A stretch of 54,495 nt of DNA, from NCBI RefSeq assembly GCF_003003795.1, contig NZ_PVWK01000157.1, forward strand, positions 1-54,495, in the 5' to 3' direction. The notes below the pieces were generated by a model. The model made no database searches. It was given only the letters and a program-made list of their open reading frames with translations, and had not been told where the DNA came from. The stretch comes from Stenomitos frigidus ULC18 (GTDB lineage Bacteria; Cyanobacteriota; Cyanobacteriia; Leptolyngbyales; Leptolyngbyaceae). The translations under genes were made by a program, and so were the position numbers. Shown here piece after piece: positions 6,561-50,260 of the stretch (position 1 is its first letter; each line of letters starts with the position of its first letter).

Positions 6561-7361
6561 TTAACTCATTTGGTACAGGTTTTGTCCAACAATGTAGGAA
6601 TGTACCGCTTCTGGCACCAGATAGCGAATCGAATGCCCCTCACGGCAGCGCTGTCGAATCAAACTAGAGGAGATTGCTACAGATGGCATTTGCAATTGGT
6701 GCCAGCGGAGTGACGGTAAAGGCGTAAGCGAGGAGGGGGTGGGAAGTGGTAGTGGGGAAAGTGGAAGGATTGAAGGGGGTAGGTTTTTGAGTATCGCTTG
6801 CTCCGCCTCCTGGCTACTTTTAAAGTGATTGACCTCAACTTCGCTTTTAGAGCCCATCACTTTAACTCCTGACTCCTGTCTTCTGACGCCTCTCCCCTCT
6901 CCCCTCTTCTCCATTTCCTCTCCCCTCTCCCCTCTCCCCTCTCTCCTTACCTCATCCTCCGACCCTCTCGGTGCCACCAGCCAGATACATTGTGCGATTA
7001 AAGACTGGCTGCCTCGCCATTTGGGCAAACTTTGAAAGGCATCGTTGCCCACAATCCAGTACCAAACCGTATTTGGTTCAAGTGCTTGTAACGCGTTGAA
7101 AGTTGCGATCGCATACGAGGTGCCTGCTTGCTGTTCATCGATCGCAGAGACTGTAAAGGCAGGATGGTCAGCGATCGCGCGCCGCACCATTTCCATGCGT
7201 TGCTCAAATGCTAGCAGTGGATGCGCTTTATACGATGGGCGAAACGTAGGCACCCAAATCACACGATCAAGCTGAAACTGATCGAAAGCCGTTTCCGCAA
7301 TCAGAAGATGCCCCCAATGGATCGGATCGAAGGTGCCGCCAAAGATCGCAATTTTAGGCAT
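6561..7361 (-). CDS. nadD: Nicotinate-nucleotide adenylyltransferase with repeat insert
   Basis: NadD makes deamido-NAD from nicotinate mononucleotide and ATP. The N-terminus has GGTFDPIHWGH (residues 8-18), and the C-terminal part keeps ISSSLIRQR and SIRYLVPEAV. ATG 7361 places the family motif at the N-terminus; a frame open to 7424 adds 21 unlikely residues. The 266-residue protein is longer than the usual 190-200 because residues about 134-217 are low complexity, first Glu/Gly/Arg-rich then Pro/Leu/Ser-rich, encoded by repeats also found between genes. Without the insert the length is about 182. Whether the long product is active is unknown. Confidence 0.9.
   Translation of the reverse strand: MPKIAIFGGTFDPIHWGHLLIAETAFDQFQLDRVIWVPTFRPSYKAHPLLAFEQRMEMVRRAIADHPAFTVSAIDEQQAGTSYAIATFNALQALEPNTVWYWIVGNDAFQSLPKWRGSQSLIAQCIWLVAPRGSEDEVRREGRGERGEEMEKRGEGRGVRRQESGVKVMGSKSEVEVNHFKSSQEAEQAILKNLPPSILPLSPLPLPTPSSLTPLPSLRWHQLQMPSVAISSSLIRQRCREGHSIRYLVPEAVHSYIVGQNLYQMS
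6711..6962 (-). repeat. Repeat-derived in-frame insertion in nadD
   Basis: The segment holds CTCCCCTCTCCCCTC-type tracts (about 6892-6960), two ACTCCTG units at 6866-6880 and a G-rich tract near 6740-6785 on the plus strand. It lies between conserved NadD segments (CIWLVAPR before, RWHQLQMPSVAISSS after) and keeps the frame. Confidence 0.85.
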
Positions 7362-7832
7362 CTTAAAACCTGGGTATCCTTGAAATAGGCATCCTATCGG
7401 TCGTAAGCCATGAAGCTGCTGCAATCAGTGTGCGCTGACGGAACCGTCTCTCTGCAAGCTAGTACCAGTAAAGCGCTGTTGGATGAAGACAAGGTTTAAT
7501 GAATTTTATGGCTATTGATCAGGAAACTCTTGAAGCAGTGGTGTAGCTAATAGATCAGCGGATCATTTTGTAAGTGAGGTGTTTGGTTCAACTGAACGCC
7601 GCTTTGCGGGTACAATCCAAGCATTCAAGCTGATTTTATGTCGACAGCTCTTTGAATACCGTTAGCGGCTTTCTAAATACTAAGGTGATATAACTTTCAA
7701 GATGATTAAGTCTCACGCATCGACATCAAGCCTTTATTGTCGAGCTGCGAGATTTATAGAAAGGCTGTATCCCGAAAAGATAATCCTTGATATGATAGCG
7801 CGAGATATTGGTGTGGTGTGTGAGGAGTGAAA
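7362..7832. other. Divergent intergenic region nadD/murC
   Basis: About 470 bases between two divergent genes. No coding frame is convincing. A TATGAT hexamer at 7791-7796, about 40 bases before murC, could be a -10 element, but I see no good -35 partner. Confidence 0.4.
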
Positions 7833-9383
7833 ATGCTGAATTCCGTCGATTTCAGCGGTAGACCATTTCATTTCATTGGCATTGGCGGCATTGGCATGTC
7901 AGCCCTTGCTTATGTCTTAGCGAAACGTGGACTACCCGTGTCTGGGTCTGATTTGCATCTCAGTCGTATTACGCAACGATTGCAGGAAGAAGGCGCCCAT
8001 ATCTTTTGGAGTCAGGATCCTAGCAACTTAGAATTTTTTCAAGCGCCTACCAGTGCTGCACAGGAGCCCGTCGCTTCTGCTGCGGTTGGGCTTGCTCCAG
8101 TGAAGGTTCGCTCACAACGAGCAACGACATCTAGAGCCTTGACAAGCCCAGCGTCAGTGCGATTGCCACAAGTCATCTGCTCGACAGCCATTCATCCTGA
8201 AAATACTGAGTATCTTGCAGCACGCGATTCAGGTTGTCCGATTTTCCATCGCTCTGATGTGCTAGCAGGGTTGATGCAAGAATACGACAGCATTGCGGTT
8301 GCAGGCACTCACGGCAAGACGACAACCAGCAGCATGATTGGCTATATGCTCTTGCAAGCAGGGCTTGATCCGACGATCGTGGTCGGCGGTGAAGTCAACG
8401 CCTGGGAAGGAAATGCGCGTCTGGGTCAGAGCCCGCACCTGGTGGCTGAGGCGGATGAGTCGGATGGCTCCTTGGTCAAAATGGCCGCCAACGTCGGTAT
8501 TGTGACGAATATCGAGCTTGATCATCCTGATCACTACAACAATCTGGATGAAGTGATCGATATTTTCAAAACCTTTGCCAAACGCTGCCAAACGCTGATC
8601 GGCTCTATTGATTGCACAATTGTCCGAGAACAACTGCAGCCTACGATTAGCTATAGCCTGGATGTGAATTCGGGCGCTGATTACACCGTTGATTGCGTGA
8701 CCTGTCGTGCCGATGGCACCACAGCGAGAGTTTGGGAGCGCGGTGTGATCTTGGGCCGCCTGAATGTCAAGCTCCTGGGGAAACATAATCTCAGTAATGC
8801 GTTGGCAGCAGTCGCCGTTGGTCGTCTATTAAAGTTAGAGTTTGCGACAATCGCTCAGGCGATCGCGACCTTTGAAGGCGCTCGACGACGCTTTGAGCGG
8901 CGTGGGGAGTACAATGACATCCTCTTTGTTGACGATTACGCTCACCACCCCAGCGAACTTCAAGCCACGTTGGCAGCGGCTCGGCTGCAGATTAACGGCA
9001 CCTCCCGTACCTCAAAGCGCCGTTTGGTGGCGATCTTTCAGCCTCATCGCTATAGTCGTACGCTGACGTTCTTAGCAGACTTCGCGACCTCTTTTAGCGA
9101 TGCCGACGTCGTCGTGATCAGTGACATCTACAGTGCTGGTGAAACAAATCCAGGAAATATCAGTGGTCAGCAGGTTGCGAATTCAATCGCAAACCATCAT
9201 CCTCAAGTAGACTACCAACCGTCTCTCCAGGCGGTTAGCCAACGCTTGACTGAACTGTTGATGCCCGGAGATATTGCCCTCTTTTTGGGAGCAGGGAATC
9301 TTAACCAACTGATTCCCGAAGTCATGGCCTTTCATCAGACTCTTGAGCAAGGGCGATCGCAGGCATGGTGTAACCAGGCCTAA
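7833..9383 (+). CDS. murC: UDP-N-acetylmuramate--L-alanine ligase
   Basis: MurC adds L-Ala to UDP-MurNAc in the cytoplasm, the first peptide step of peptidoglycan synthesis. Seen: FHFIGIGGIGMSALA near the start, the ATP-binding GTHGKTTTSSM, EADESDGS, LDHPDHY and DDYAHHPSE of the Mur ligase fold. The ATG at 7833 is preferred over the GTG at 7827 because GAGGAG at 7822-7827 is a ribosome site five bases before the ATG and overlaps the GTG. The product is 516 residues. A Ser/Ala/Thr-rich linker of about 40 residues follows NLEFFQ and precedes PQVICSTAIHPEN. It is followed by murB after 78 bases, probably as an operon. Confidence 0.96.
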   Translation: MLNSVDFSGRPFHFIGIGGIGMSALAYVLAKRGLPVSGSDLHLSRITQRLQEEGAHIFWSQDPSNLEFFQAPTSAAQEPVASAAVGLAPVKVRSQRATTSRALTSPASVRLPQVICSTAIHPENTEYLAARDSGCPIFHRSDVLAGLMQEYDSIAVAGTHGKTTTSSMIGYMLLQAGLDPTIVVGGEVNAWEGNARLGQSPHLVAEADESDGSLVKMAANVGIVTNIELDHPDHYNNLDEVIDIFKTFAKRCQTLIGSIDCTIVREQLQPTISYSLDVNSGADYTVDCVTCRADGTTARVWERGVILGRLNVKLLGKHNLSNALAAVAVGRLLKLEFATIAQAIATFEGARRRFERRGEYNDILFVDDYAHHPSELQATLAAARLQINGTSRTSKRRLVAIFQPHRYSRTLTFLADFATSFSDADVVVISDIYSAGETNPGNISGQQVANSIANHHPQVDYQPSLQAVSQRLTELLMPGDIALFLGAGNLNQLIPEVMAFHQTLEQGRSQAWCNQA

Positions 9384-14084: not shown

Positions 14085-14417
14085 ATGCTCTCGTGGAGTG
14101 ATCAATTTATGCTTAAAACCCTCAACTCCCTACTCAAACGCCATCCCGAACGAGTCAACGCCAACGTCGAAATCTACACTTGGCAAACGTGTCCTTTCTG
14201 TATACGTGCCAAACTGCTTTTGTGGTGGAAAGGCGTTCACTTTACAGAGTATAAAATTGACGGGGATGACACTGCCAGAACCAAAATGGCAGAACGCGCC
14301 AATGGAAAACGCTCTGTGCCGCAGATTTTTATCAATCAGCAACACATCGGTGGTTGTGATGACCTCTATCAGTTAGATCAAAACGGTCAACTCGACGCAC
14401 TGCTAGCTGCCGCTTAG
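14085..14417 (+). CDS. grxC: Glutaredoxin 3-like dithiol glutaredoxin
   Basis: The 110-residue product has the thioredoxin-fold active site CPFC preceded by VEIYTWQT, followed by the cis-Pro segment RSVPQIFINQQHIGGCDDLYQL, which binds glutathione. It reduces disulfides or glutathionylated proteins with GSH in the cytosol. ATG 14085 has GGAAG eight bases upstream; ATG 14109 is an alternative, giving 102 residues. The preceding small membrane-protein gene is 42 bases away. Confidence 0.93.
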   Translation: MLSWSDQFMLKTLNSLLKRHPERVNANVEIYTWQTCPFCIRAKLLLWWKGVHFTEYKIDGDDTARTKMAERANGKRSVPQIFINQQHIGGCDDLYQLDQNGQLDALLAAA

Positions 14418-14437
14418 TAGTGAAGAGGGGGAGGCAG

Positions 14438-14479
14438 GGCTAAAGGCTAAAGGCTAAAGGCTAAAGGCTAAAGGCTAAT
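14438..14479. repeat. Heptamer tandem repeat (GGCTAAA)
   Basis: Five exact GGCTAAA units (14438-14472) and a sixth ending GGCTAAT. Seven-base tandem repeats of this kind (STRR) are known in filamentous cyanobacteria. It runs straight into a C/T-rich tract at about 14490-14534. Confidence 0.92.
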
Positions 14480-14489
14480 CTCAAGTTCA

Positions 14490-14534
14490 TCCCCCCTGCC
14501 CCCCTCTCCCCTCTCCCCTCTCCCCTCCTCCCCT
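14490..14534. repeat. Polypyrimidine CCCCTCT tract
   Basis: Repeated CCCCTCTCC units fill this stretch up to the apparent first codon of tadA. The same units occur inside nadD at about 6892-6960, and the complementary GGGGAGA units in the hybrid kinase at about 35313-35372. Confidence 0.85.
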
Positions 14535-15047
14535 TTGCCATCCTCCTCCGCCTTCGATCACCCCGAATACCTACGACATCGACAGTGGATGGAGCGAGCG
14601 ATGTCGCTTGCTCAAAGAGCTGGAGACGCAGGTGACGTTCCGGTTGGTGCGATTGTTGTGAGTGCAGATGGACAAGCGATCGCTGAGGCTGAAAACCGTC
14701 GCGAACGGGATCATGATCCAACAGCCCATGCCGAAATCCTGGCATTACGTATGGCTGGACGTGCTCTGGGTAACTGGCATCTGACCCAATGTACTCTCTA
14801 TGTCACGCTAGAACCCTGCCCTATGTGCGCAGGAGCACTAGTATTGGCACGGTTGGGACTGTTAGTGTATGGAGCCGATGATCCGAAAGCTGGTGCGGTG
14901 CGATCGATCCTGAACATCCCTGATAGCGCTTGTTCTAACCACCATCTTTCTGTGCTGGGTGGTATTCTGGAAGCGCCCTGTCGTGAGCAGCTACAGTCTT
15001 GGTTTGCACTGCGTCGTAGTCATTCTGAGTACGATCGTTCGGTTTAA
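14535..15047 (+). CDS. tadA: tRNA-specific adenosine deaminase TadA
   Basis: TadA deaminates A34 of tRNA-Arg(ACG) to inosine. The zinc site is clear: HAEI at 65-68 and PCPMC with Cys95 and Cys98; Glu67 is the catalytic proton shuttle. The start is uncertain. Homology-like sequence (HRQWMERAMSLAQRAG) begins before the first ATG at 14589, so the TTG at 14535 is used here, giving 170 residues, but the bases ahead of it are a C/T repeat without any ribosome site. The repeat may have replaced the original 5' end. Confidence 0.9.
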   Translation: MPSSSAFDHPEYLRHRQWMERAMSLAQRAGDAGDVPVGAIVVSADGQAIAEAENRRERDHDPTAHAEILALRMAGRALGNWHLTQCTLYVTLEPCPMCAGALVLARLGLLVYGADDPKAGAVRSILNIPDSACSNHHLSVLGGILEAPCREQLQSWFALRRSHSEYDRSV

Positions 15048-32554: not shown

Positions 32555-33002
32555 ACAGATCACCCGCTTGAAGCAAATCTATCTTCTGAAGAAAAAAGCC
32601 CTTTAGCACGGGTATTTCACCGCTCAAAATGTAGACATCTATTCTACCTTAGGGCTGATCTTTGCGGCTATGGTCGTCAGGCTCACCAGGAAAAACCTAG
32701 TGTTGATAGCTAACTCAGCCATTTTTGACTGGACTTTACCTGCTTGATCCGATCGCTCAGTCGCATTTACCCTTTAGATAGGAAGAACATGAACTTACAA
32801 TAAAAGACCGGGACAAGGTAATGGGAAAGGATCAACAGTAGCGCAGCAAAGGCGGTTTGCATACAGGCTTCAGCCTTCGACATACCGCTTGAGGTCATGA
32901 GCTGAAACATACCTACAGTAGAGACGGCTGCAACAGCCATCACGTTTGCTTGCCTTGCCCTGTCCTGCGTCCCATGACTTTAGTTATCTTTCGTCGATCG
33001 CC
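32555..33002. other. Divergent intergenic region between two kinase genes
   Basis: About 450 bases with no plausible gene. It must hold promoters for the minus-strand kinase and for the plus-strand signalling row. No clear operator is seen. Confidence 0.4.
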
Positions 33003-36000
33003 ATGCTAAATCGCTTGAAAATTGGTACCAAAATCGGAGCCAGCTTTGCACTGGGTTTACTCTTTTTCGTAGCGCTCTCAGCCATCTCCTACCGTAGTAC
33101 CCATCAGTTAATTGGCACTGCCGAGCGCGAATCACATACGTATGAAGTGATTGGACAAATAGAAGACCTCTTATCGCACTTAAAAGACGCGGAAACAGGG
33201 CAGCGTGGCTATGTGATTACGGGCGACGAAAAATATCTGGAGCCTTATAACGCGGCTGTTCGCGTGCTTGATGGCAGAACCAGAGAGCGACTGCGTGTGT
33301 TGATTCAAGATAATCCTACGCAGCAGCAGCGCCTGGAAACGGTAGACCCAATCATCACAGCCAAGCTCACTGAGTTGGATGAGAGCATTAGGCTACGCCG
33401 GCAACAGGGGTTTACCGCTGCCCAAAAAGCGGTTCAAACGGATCGTGGCAGCCAACTGATGGGCAACATCCGGAGAATACTCTTAGAGATGGAAGTTGAA
33501 GAGCGAAAGCTCCTAAAGCAACGATCTCAAGACGCTGCTGCCGCCGCCAAACAAACCACCGATAGCGTCACCTATGGCATTCCCGTTTACTCGCTGCTGT
33601 TGGTTCTCATTGGCTGGGCGTTAGCGCGACATATTTCGCGGCCATTGCGCCACGTTTCCGAAGTGGCCGATCGCATTGGTGACGGTGATTTAGATGTCAG
33701 TGTACCGACGAGCGATCGGCAGGATGAGATTGGCACGCTCACGCGCACCTTTAACCAGATGATCACCAATCTACGCGATACCAATCGACGGAACGACGAG
33801 CAAACCTGGCTGAAGTCAAACCTGGCAGACGTTGGACGCATGCTTCAGGGACAGCGCGATCAAGAAGCCGTCGCCCGTCAGATCCTCTCCAAGCTGGCAC
33901 CCCTCATTGGCGCACAGCAAGGCGTTTTCTACTTGATGGAGACCGACACCCATCCGCCCCAGCTAAAGTTGCTTAGTAGCTACGCCTATCGGGAACGCAA
34001 GCATCTGGCTAATCAGTTCCGGTTGGGTGAAGGGCTGGTGGGGCAATGCGCTCTAGAAAAACAGCGCATTCTGCTCACCGACGTGCCCAGCGACTACATT
34101 CGCATTGCGTCTGGCTTGGGTGAAGCGCCACCCCTCAACATTGTGGTGTTGCCGATTCTGTTTGAGCAAGCAGTGACTGGAGTAATGGAATTGGCATCTC
34201 TGCAACGGTTTAATGAGATCCAACTGACGTTGTTAGATGAGGTAAGTGAGAGCATTGGCGCAGTGCTGAATACGATCGCCGCCGACCTTCGCACAAATGA
34301 ACTGCTGCAAGAATCCCAGACCCTCACCGAGGAACTACAGCAGCAGCAAGATGAAATTCAAGAAAGCAGCCGCTTGCTCGAAGAACAAACCGAAACGCTG
34401 CGTTTATCGGAAGCACAACTGAAAGAGCAACAGGAAGAGCTGCAGCAGACAAACGAAGAACTGCAGCAATTGAACGAAGAACTGGAAGAAAAAGCTCAAC
34501 TGCTGGCAGAACAAAAGCAAGAGGGCGAGCAGAAGAATCAAGCGATCGAACTGGCGAGACAGGCGATCGAAGAAAAAGCCGCACAGCTGACCCTCAGCTC
34601 TCGCTACAAGTCTGAGTTTCTCGCCAATATGTCGCACGAGCTGCGCACCCCGCTCAATAGTTTGCTGATCCTGGCACGCCTGTTGAGTGAGAACGGCGAC
34701 GGTAACTTGACCGATAAACAGGTGGAATACAGCCGCACGATTCACGCGGCTGGTAGCGACCTACTCGAACTAATCAACGAAATTCTCGATCTAGCCAAAA
34801 TTGAATCGGGCACTATCTCCATCGATGTTGAAGACCTCCGCTTAACCGATTTACAGCAATTCCTGGAGCGCACGTTTCAGCAGGTGGCCCACGATGTGGA
34901 GCTGGAGTTTCGCGTCGAGTTAGACCCAGCCTTGCCCCCATCCATACAGACTGACCCCAAACGTCTGCAGCAAATTCTCAAGAACCTTTTATCTAATGCT
35001 TTTAAGTTCACTGAGCATGGCAGCGTGACCGTACAGATTACCCCTGCAGCGGACGATCGCGCGCCGCTGTTCGCCAACAATCCAGAACCCATGATTGCCT
35101 TTGCCGTCACCGACACTGGCGTTGGCATTGCCCCTGAAAAACAAGCCGTGATTTTTGAAGCGTTTCAGCAAGCCGATGGCACTACCAGCCGCAAATATGG
35201 CGGAACTGGGCTCGGCTTGTCAATCAGCCGCGAACTGGCTCAACGACTGGGCGGTCGCATTGAGCTGACTAGTCAACCAGGACAGGGAAGTACTTTCACG
35301 CTGGTGCTGCTAATGGGAGAGGGGAGAGAGGAGAGAGGAGAGAGGGATGAGAAGAGAGAAGGGAGGAGAGAAGAGCGGTCAGCGGTCAGCCGTCAGCCAT
35401 CAGCTTTTAAAACTCACTCGCAACCGCCACTCACGCCTCACGCCTCAACCCTTACCGCTCCCAACGAAGTTGATGACGATCGCGCCCTGATTCAGCCTGG
35501 CGATCGGGTGTTGCTAATCATTGAAGATGATCAGCACTTTGCCCGCATTCTGATGGAGATGGCGCGTCAGCAAGGCTTCAGAGTGTTGGCTTCATTACGG
35601 AGTCAGCCAGGGCTGGCGCTGGCACAGGTCTTTAAGCCCGATGCCATCATGCTAGATATCCGTCTACCGGATATGGATGGCTGGACGGTGCTCGATCGGC
35701 TGAAGCATGACCCAGAGACACGTCACATTCCAGTGCATATTCTCTCGGTTGACGATGAACAGCAGCGCAGCTTGCAATTGGGCGCGATCGCCTACCTGCA
35801 AAAACCCGTCTCGCCACAAGCCCTGACACAAGCTCTTGTCAATATCAAAGGGTTTGTGGAACGTCCGGTGAAGAACCTGTTGGTAGTGGAAGACGATCCA
35901 GTACAGGCACAAAGCATTCGAGCACTCATTGGCAATGGCGATGTTTCGACAACCATCGTGGGGACAGGAGCCGCAGCACTGGCAACGTTGCGATCGAGCC

Positions 36001-36674
36001 TCTTTGATTGTGTCGTGTTGGATCTCGGTTTGCCCGACATGACTGGCTTCGACTTGATCGAGCAAATTAAACAACAGCCAGAGTTCTTGCGGCTACCCAT
36101 CATTGTCTACACAGGCAGAGAACTCACCCAGCAGCAGGAAACACAGCTCAGACGACTGGCAGAAACCATCATCGTTAAGGATGTACGATCGCCTGAACGG
36201 CTGCTTGATGAAACCGCCCTCTTCTTACATCGAGTCCAGGCAGCGTTGCCGGAGTCGAAGCGACAAATGCTGGAGCAATTGCATCAGAGTGATCCAGTGC
36301 TGGCGCACAAAAAGGTGCTGATTGTGGATGATGATGTACGCAATATTTTTGCCCTTACCAGCCTGCTAGAACGCTACCAGATGCAAGTGTCCTACGCTGA
36401 GAACGGGGTTGATGGCATTGCGTCACTCCAAAACCATCCCGACATTGATGTGGTATTGATGGATGTCATGATGCCGGAACTGGATGGCTATGAAAGCACG
36501 CGAGCCATTCGTCAGATCGACTCCTTTCGCTCCTTACCCATCATTGCCTTGACGGCAAAAGCCATGCAGGGCGATCGTGAAAAGTGTCTGGAAGCAGGCG
36601 CGTCAGACTATATCACCAAACCCGTTGATACCGAACAGTTACTCTCTTTACTGCGGGTGTGGCTCTACCGTTAA
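33003..36674 (+). CDS. Hybrid histidine kinase: CHASE3-HAMP-GAF-HK-REC-REC-REC
   Basis: Starting at ATG 33003 the protein is 1223 residues. Order: membrane helix (about 12-30); CHASE3 sensor ([21 protein letters not shown]); second helix (190-208); HAMP; GAF (285-430); a long Gln/Glu-rich coiled coil; HisKA with [13 protein letters not shown] (His near 544); HATPase ([23 protein letters not shown]); and three receiver domains with phospho-Asp in [24 protein letters not shown] and [13 protein letters not shown] repeat-derived insert (771-820) links kinase and receivers. The frame is open to 32946, but the membrane helix fits this start. CheR follows. Confidence 0.93.
35313..35462 (+). repeat. 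Repeat-derived in-frame insert in hybrid kinase
   Basis: A run of GGGGAGAGAGGAGAGAGG-like units is followed by AGCGGTCAGCGGTCAGC, a CACGCCTCACGCCTCA tract, then normal coding sequence. It encodes about 50 residues (Glu/Arg/Gly then Ser/Pro/His/Thr) between the HATPase and first receiver domain. Frame is kept. Confidence 0.85.
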
Positions 36675-49404: not shown

Positions 49405-49510
49405 AAGAGGTTAGAGGGATGAGGGATGAAGAGAATTTTGAGTTTTGAATTTTGAGTTTTGAATTAACTTTGACCACCGGCTACCGACCACTGACTCCTG
49501 AATCCTGCTT

Positions 49511-50260
49511 CTAACAGAAAAAATTACTTTCTAATGAATCATGAAAATGCGGCAATGCTGGCGGAATGCCGTAGGCAACTTGAATATTTTTCTGAGTCAT
49601 CACTTCTGTTGGTGATCCATGTGCAATCAACCGCTGGTTGAGTAAGAGTAACTGGTCATAGTGATTGAGAATACCGCCCCATTCATGACAGCTAACCAGA
49701 AGGGTTTTACCCTGAGCTTTCAGTTCGTCGTAAATTTGAAAAATTAACGCTTCAGTTTTCTTATCGACAGCGGCAAGTGGTTCATCTAGCAGCAGTAAAT
49801 CGGCTTGCTGCGCGATCGCCCTCGCCAGAAAAACCCGTTGTTGCTGCCCGCCAGACAGCGATCCGATCGGGCGATCGCGCAAATCTAGCATTTCAACGCG
49901 TTGCAACGAGTCTCTGACGATGTCCCGCGACTGGCGGCTGGGCGATCGGAACCACCCAGTGTGAGGAGTGCGCGCCATCATTACTACATTCCAGACGGTA
50001 ATCGGGTAATCCCAATCGATTTGCGATCGCTGTGGCACATAAGCGACTCGCCGAAGCTGCTGTTTGAGTGGCTTATTTCGATAAAGCACCTGCCCCGCCT
50101 GTGTTGGAATCAACCCCAGCAACGCTTTAATAAGCGTACTCTTACCCGCTCCATTCGGACCAATCAGCCCCACCAATGAGCCACTGGGTAGCCTGAAACC
50201 AATATCGTCAAGCGCTTGTAACCGACGGTAATTGACAGTGAGATGCTGAACCTGTAGCAT
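49511..50260 (-). CDS. znuC: Metal ABC transporter ATP-binding protein (ZnuC family)
   Basis: The 249-residue ATPase shows Walker A GPNGAGKST, signature LSGGQQQRVFLARAIA and Walker B LLLLDEPLAAVD. Homology to ZnuC/MntA/TroB-type ATPases fits its neighbours. It is the first gene of the minus-strand unit, with the permease next, and shares a 53-base divergent promoter with the binding-protein gene. Confidence 0.92.
   Translation of the reverse strand: MLQVQHLTVNYRRLQALDDIGFRLPSGSLVGLIGPNGAGKSTLIKALLGLIPTQAGQVLYRNKPLKQQLRRVAYVPQRSQIDWDYPITVWNVVMMARTPHTGWFRSPSRQSRDIVRDSLQRVEMLDLRDRPIGSLSGGQQQRVFLARAIAQQADLLLLDEPLAAVDKKTEALIFQIYDELKAQGKTLLVSCHEWGGILNHYDQLLLLNQRLIAHGSPTEVMTQKNIQVAYGIPPALPHFHDSLESNFFC

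Follow-up and report, generated by a model that had tools for sequence, protein, structure and literature searches.

Heptamer repeats named STRR are said to have been described in cyanobacteria by Mazel in 1990, and the SDR elements of Nostoc punctiforme, reportedly described by Elhai in 2008, are said to measure 21–27 nt, to form hairpins and frequently to sit within arrays of heptamers. Judging by its title, Vioque 1997 locates STRR within rnpB, the gene for RNase P RNA, of heterocyst-forming cyanobacteria. In another lineage, Rickettsia palindromic elements lie in frame in conserved protein genes and also occur in RNA genes, and the product of one host gene, gmk, stays active, according to a published passage on them (PMC2229807). 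A passage on Nostoc gives 68% of the GGGGA(C/T)T heptamers as intergenic (PMC4692102). Passages from a survey of long simple sequence repeats in bacteria (PMC4679880) report that heptanucleotides are the commonest class in most genomes examined, name polymerase slippage as a proposed cause and describe multiple-of-three units as likeliest within coding regions. In the literature searched, which covered few subscription journals and was represented partly by titles and passages, we came across no account of heptamers turning over at a fixed loop of a protein.

The DNA analyzed here is a contig of 54,495 nucleotides from Stenomitos frigidus ULC18 (hereafter, the window). On its minus strand, nadD, the gene for nicotinate-nucleotide adenylyltransferase, occupies 6561..7361 and encodes 266 aa from a likely ATG start at 7361, within an open reading frame (ORF) that opens at 7424 (6561..7424). 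The product was assigned to NadD by equivalog scores above the curated cut-offs (TIGR00482, 168.5 bits, cut-off 112.45; NF000840, 166.8 bits, cut-off 150), and the best 17 sequence matches listed from the PDB, as well as 50 of the 50 Foldseek structure matches listed, are NadD. The first conserved block of the enzyme stops at WLVAPR (R132) and the second starts at LRWHQLQMP (residue 218); between them lies an in-frame heptamer-mosaic insert of 85 aa (residues 133–217; 6711..6965, minus strand). The sequence-only reading had described a low-complexity stretch at 6711–6962 (residues 134–217) that splits the two blocks and keeps the frame, and this was borne out, as the stretch is real and the reading frame through it is open.

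The insert is composite. A G-rich heptamer part on the minus strand (6889..6947; Tandem Repeats Finder, period 7, 8.4 copies) shows CCCCTCT on the plus strand, which is AGAGGGG in the nadD mRNA, and two ACTCCTG units, CAGGAGT in the mRNA, lie at 6865..6878 (minus strand). A middle module, partly non-heptameric and dispersed in the genome, occupies 6799..6885 (minus strand), and the 3' part, C-rich on the sense strand, occupies 6711..6790 (minus strand; drawn by GC skew, boundary approximate). The sense halves have GC skews of +0.78 and −0.48. Positions 6700–6990 contain five CCCCTCT and two ACTCCTG units, compared with nine (and three on the other strand) and four (and four on the other strand), respectively, in the whole window. 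The period-7 match for the insert as a whole is 0.47 versus 0.30–0.38 for the other periods from 3 to 13, so the insert is a degenerate mosaic. The middle module recurs at 74% over 80 bases within an 886-aa ORF on contig C129 (histidine-kinase-like by eye) and at 79% over 61–62 bases on contig C163, and a reversed-sequence control gave no matches.

Mapped onto an AlphaFold model (33 sequences), the insert falls in a low-confidence region between two predicted strands (residues 125–130 and 219–222): the pLDDT block means are 32–71 across residues 131–220, and at least 90 in 13 of the 18 blocks outside them. The loop at this site has a median of 27 aa outside the genus (range 11–55; a result for 98 of 101 loci), which puts the excess of the 85-aa loop at ~58 residues. 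In six genus relatives and the genome G010, the loop measures 33–71 aa, always above that median (one locus, L022, gave no NadD loop in one comparison); by eye, no repeats are apparent in the inserts of G003, G005 and G006. The loop is thus variable in length, and the clean gap in relatives that a recent insertion into nadD had been expected to leave did not appear.

Heptamers are the prevailing tandem period of this genome. In 400 kb, with an equal number of matching positions required per period, we counted 12.5 period-7 arrays per 100 kb, 0.2 at period 6 and 0 at periods 4, 5 and 8–12; the other sampled genomes had at most 0.5 arrays per 100 kb at period 8 and at most 2.0 at period 12. At three thresholds, a 70-base sliding test over 454 kb returned 51, 35 and 30 regions of period 7 and no regions for periods 4, 5, 8, 10 and 11, which indicates that the NadD repeat is not due to chance; at the middle threshold, NadD 6855–6972 is one of four period-7 regions in the window. 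With a simple ORF caller, 29 of the 56 arrays in the 454 kb (window included) are intergenic, 5 are at an ORF edge and 22 lie within ORFs at a depth of 40 aa or more. Coding sequence makes up 0.82 of this sample, so that 29 of 56 arrays lie in ~18% of the DNA; intergenic DNA is thus enriched in arrays, although two in five fall within ORFs. A unit table that took in 14 loci chosen for RadA and RlmN, and therefore leans towards genes, was kept out of the counts. By manual reading, 12 of the 19 sites with an exact double CCCCTCT unit and 8 of the 11 with a double ACTCCTG unit are well within ORFs of at least 287 aa, and nadD appears in both sets. The reversed-pattern control gave 25 hits versus 28 for CCCCTCT, a unit that is nearly the same read backwards, and 0 versus 16 for ACTCCTG.

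Within the window, intergenic heptamer clusters lie at 14396..14564 (GGCTAAA and CCCCTCT arrays) and 49414..49516, neither assigned a strand. The array of the nadD insert recurs at 14501–14527, in agreement with the earlier statement that the repeats of the nadD insert also occur between genes. The implication that such an insert is peculiar to nadD did not hold, as similar repeats are found inside other genes, for example, in frame on the plus strand at 35298..35454 in the ORF 32946–36671 (1242 aa, histidine-kinase-like by eye). These arrays are STRR-type in being 7-base tandem direct repeats with many copies clustered between genes, the term standing here for period and clustering. The likeness to STRR thus covers tandem heptamers, clustering, a cyanobacterial host and, going by the title of Vioque 1997, presence in rnpB. 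That title, however, names heterocyst-forming hosts, whereas the present case concerns a Leptolyngbya-like genus, in-frame filling of protein loops and turnover of their content.

Sample and pattern searches revealed repeat inserts inside PriA, RadA, RecG, MutS, GyrA, RlmN, TrpE and others, and heptamer mosaics are also present in an mfd-like ORF of this genome and in uvrA of a genus relative. The NCBIfam match brackets the insert in 9 of 10 proteins tested (PriA, RadA, GyrA, RlmN, AnmK, MenE, PyrD, TrpE and RecG, with a very short insert in PyrD); the exception is Mfd, where the match begins at residue 220, past the insert site at ~117. The MutS family match comes in two pieces, one on either side of the insert. 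Compared with solved structures, 60 residues replace 3 in RadA, and 109 replace 47 between aligned parts in PriA. A short C-rich repeat-like stretch lies in mnmE (MnmE by TIGR00450; 4010..4060, minus strand), and MnmE has such a stretch at one site in this genome (G000), G001 and G002, with differing content. Separately, murC (window 7827–9383) possibly has an extra N-terminal stretch, its Mur_ligase match spanning 140 residues for a 95-position profile.

In RadA, RlmN and MutS, the site is fixed and the content is rewritten between the genomes of the genus. The inserts occupy the identical site in 7/7 genus genomes, while the mean identity falls from 0.96 in the flank to 0.27 in the insert for RadA (15 pairs, the G004 fragment left out), from 0.94 to 0.26 for RlmN (21 pairs) and from 0.92 to 0.31 for MutS (21 pairs). 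The period-7 match of the RadA loop is 0.59–0.67 in six genus genomes and 0.43 in G002, which has 2.5 arrays per 100 kb and the shortest RadA insert, compared with 0.30–0.40 for other periods; in MutS, it is 0.41–0.66 versus 0.28–0.39. The GGGGA(C/T)T repeats of Nostoc are likewise heptamers in a cyanobacterium, but the passage that describes them (PMC4692102) gives no account of fixed sites in housekeeping-protein loops with turnover between species. The long repeats of PMC4679880 differ in another way, since the passages there associate coding regions with multiple-of-three units, whereas here they hold heptamers. By eye, the peptide stretch R.VH.VAPSELALLKT is common to the priA insert of this genome (L045) and the mutS insert of G002 (L338), which points to a module that has moved between genes.

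Is the loop older than its repeats? RadA loci were obtained from 30 of 39 family genomes, and 29 gave a loop, of 13–82 residues (the locus of G023 is without a loop result). In the six genomes without an array in the 80-kb sample, the periodicity of the RadA loop is 0.18–0.31, again over lengths of 13–82 residues; the loops of these relatives are non-periodic, unrelated in sequence and varied in length. The denser the heptamers of a genome, the more periodic its RadA loop tends to be (Spearman 0.80, p = 4e-4, n = 15 of 17 sampled genomes, G010 and G017 being without a RadA value; periodicities transcribed by hand), although the points come from related genomes and are not independent, and the 80-kb samples are small. 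G030 is off the trend, with 3.0 arrays per 100 kb and a periodicity of 0.68, and G017 and G018, with no arrays in the 80-kb sample, yet have nine GTCAGGA matches each genome-wide. The RadA loop seems to precede its repeat filling. As an observation of its own, the match to radA of G010 (G010:C1:2692296-2693919) is split over two frames, with the junction at query residue 264, at some distance from the insert; this is a frameshift or a sequencing error.

Beyond the family, 79 loci of other cyanobacteria, mostly Nostocales (L072–L150), have 9 of 238 arrays deep in ORFs and 219 of 238 between genes, compared with 52 of 146 deep in ORFs in samples of five genus genomes. The nine lie at approximately the same distance from nadD and are therefore probably in one orthologous ORF. 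Since all 79 loci come from one orthologous neighborhood, their lower in-ORF share is no more than a lead.

The RNase P RNA gene provides a counterpart outside protein genes. In 7/7 genus genomes (L329–L335; in this genome, L333, G000:C73:15522-15998), in a comparison of anchored loops only, one rnpB region between fixed anchors is heptamer-like, with a period-7 match of 0.41–0.64 versus 0.24–0.37 for other periods. By eye, the units are GAGTTTT-type in G000 and G006, GGCTAAA-type in G001–G004 and GGTAAAA-type in G005. The region folds mainly as one stem (with a side hairpin in G002), with z values of −2.5 to −7.6 after separate shuffling of the halves; its own arms beat all swapped arms in 3/7, and arms are often interchangeable between genomes with a common unit type. 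Hand translation of GGCTAAA gives a stop on either strand, which would bar this unit from long in-frame arrays. Together, the retained pairing and the stops of GGCTAAA suggest that the filler obeys base pairing in the RNA and the reading frame in proteins.

We consider it probable that permissive loops have been colonized by STRR-type heptamers that are constrained locally and have no common function, with nadD as one case. Loops that already tolerated length change in conserved proteins would have been colonized by heptamers that otherwise lie between genes. Slippage, recombination with other heptamer clusters and the insertion of small dispersed modules would then rewrite the content, and selection would remove only the copies that cause a stop, a net frame break or a disturbance of the fold. 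By simple arithmetic, the three frames of a heptamer array all yield one cycle of seven residues, so a single strand free of stops is enough. In rnpB, the same filler would be held to base pairing instead of frame. When inserts were matched to repeat pools, the own genome ranked first for 5 of 16 with 12-mers (p = 0.11) and for 4 of 16 with 10-mers (p = 0.27), neither significant; after a post-hoc correction for pool richness, p was 0.003 with 12/16 positive. No pair of filled and empty genomes for an insert site was found among the genomes compared, and the insertion event itself is thus unseen. Judged from sequence, the inserts most likely amount to near-neutral filler without a shared function, and the one in nadD most likely has no function.

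A discrete mobile element of fixed length with terminal repeats, comparable to the Rickettsia palindromic elements, is the best-placed alternative, albeit an unlikely one. The resemblance lies in repeats that are in frame in conserved protein genes and present in RNA genes, and modules do recur in genes and between genes: the middle of the NadD insert is one, and a second, a dispersed module of 46 bases that lies within AAAACTC arrays, was found in six protein ORFs (L059, L051, L164, L157, L043 and, as a partial copy, L175), between genes at L176 and at an ORF edge at L178 12572–12618. This module is similar to SDR by eye only, and it differs in having copies within protein genes. The Rickettsia elements, as described in the published passage, carry inverted repeats and are recognizable in sequence, whereas we see mosaics of changing heptamers without fixed ends; the inserts of NadD, RadA, RlmN and MutS have neither a common length (29–85 aa) nor a shared sequence, and although some folds are strong, they do not make up a single family of similar length that carries inverted repeats.

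Folding tells against such an element as a general explanation in protein genes, since the own arms of an insert beat all swapped arms in 0/22. Against within-half mononucleotide shuffles, the 22 inserts have z values from −3.79 to +2.31, with five below −2 (two NadD, three RadA). RadA is negative in 7/7 (−0.60 to −3.79), a point in favor of the mobile element, and its inserts could still include some pairing beyond composition. Plain-shuffle z values had looked stronger because they ignored the composition, G on the left and C on the right. Small elements within the mosaics may be mobile.

Could selection instead maintain the inserts for a function, such as that of a flexible charged linker or an mRNA structure? 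We regard this as rather improbable, but it has two regularities on its side, the same site in all seven genomes and a constant polarity. The sense strand runs from G-rich to C-rich in 22/22 NadD, RadA and RlmN inserts and in 7/7 MutS inserts (29/29 in all). Outside the genus, this order is found in 28/98 NadD loops, compared with 8/8 within the NadD set here (Fisher p 1e-4, a comparison in which both sides include related rows). In MnmE, both halves of the stretches are C-rich, contrary to this polarity, and MnmE was excluded from the counts for polarity, folding and k-mers. Around single G-rich arrays, the mean skew is positive upstream and negative downstream, for the 55 arrays in ORFs (p = 2e-6) as well as for the 95 between genes (p = 2e-8). 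The skew is negative downstream of 34/55 arrays in ORFs and 56/95 between genes, and upstream of 10/55 and 20/95, respectively; the arrays within one cluster are not independent, and this polarity is a tendency. If the 29/29 polarity reflected a requirement of the protein, "neutral filler" would be too simple a description. The five inserts that fold better than their within-half shuffles also speak for a function. On the other hand, content and length turn over, relatives without sampled arrays have unrelated RadA loop sequences of 13–82 residues, and the nadD mRNA fold is not significant against dinucleotide shuffles (z −1.55; 13/200 as good).

A bolder proposal, which we rate as improbable, is that this lineage might carry repeat-controlled DNA-repair genes that act as switchable mutators or, in a milder form, that the clade has lost the exclusion of repeats from genes seen in Nostocales. 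The proposal draws on the heptamer mosaics in mutS, radA, recG, priA, gyrA, the mfd-like ORF and the uvrA of a relative. Since seven is not a multiple of three, one unit lost or gained would switch a gene off reversibly.

It is very improbable that the nadD insert is a one-off recent insertion tolerated through a second nadD. The second gene, which the sequence-only reading had offered as one of two possibilities, is present: contig C84 encodes a 199-aa NadD (250.7 bits, cut-off 167) in a cluster between pncB and a nudix gene (nadD and pncB by NCBIfam, nudix by eye). By eye, the adjacent pncB (L002 3-1415) has a repeat-like stretch, SSSQRAAVSGQESVERP. Of 58 relatives, 53 have the C84-type nadD at E ≤ 1e-15. 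The window type is absent in 12 of 34 family relatives (best hits 9e-9 to 7e-4), all 12 of which have the C84 type, and G003 and G021 show the reverse pattern, the window type without the C84 type. From this distribution, either gene seems to be enough and the two types appear interchangeable, a point in favor of a one-off insertion. However, RadA and RlmN, with one match each per genome in 7/7 genus genomes, have similar inserts, so redundancy is unlikely as the general reason for tolerance. Furthermore, the loops at the same place in the six genus relatives and G010 exceed the outside median, and like inserts at conserved sites in RadA, PriA, GyrA, MutS and others contradict an isolated event.

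A pseudogene, a sequencing error, an intein or an intron is extremely improbable, as only the odd composition and the draft state of the assembly (167 contigs) favor them, whereas NadD has an open frame in the genus genomes, its two blocks are conserved, and Pfam and NCBIfam give only cytidylyltransferase-like and NadD families.

With the colonization of permissive loops by heptamers as the preferred reading, the parts of the system are ordinary, namely STRR heptamers and tolerated inserts; its extent and its pattern of fixed site and free content are unusual. In the published passages, heptamers are mainly intergenic, whereas here they have rewritten loops of replication and repair proteins whose flanks are 92–96% identical on average. 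For annotation, this is a warning, as a profile match can be broken into two by such an insert, which may also pass for an error. For the biology of the genus, the RadA, RlmN and MutS inserts form a natural series for how freely a protein loop can change, and pairing these proteins with rnpB separates the behavior of the repeat from the permission given by the host gene.
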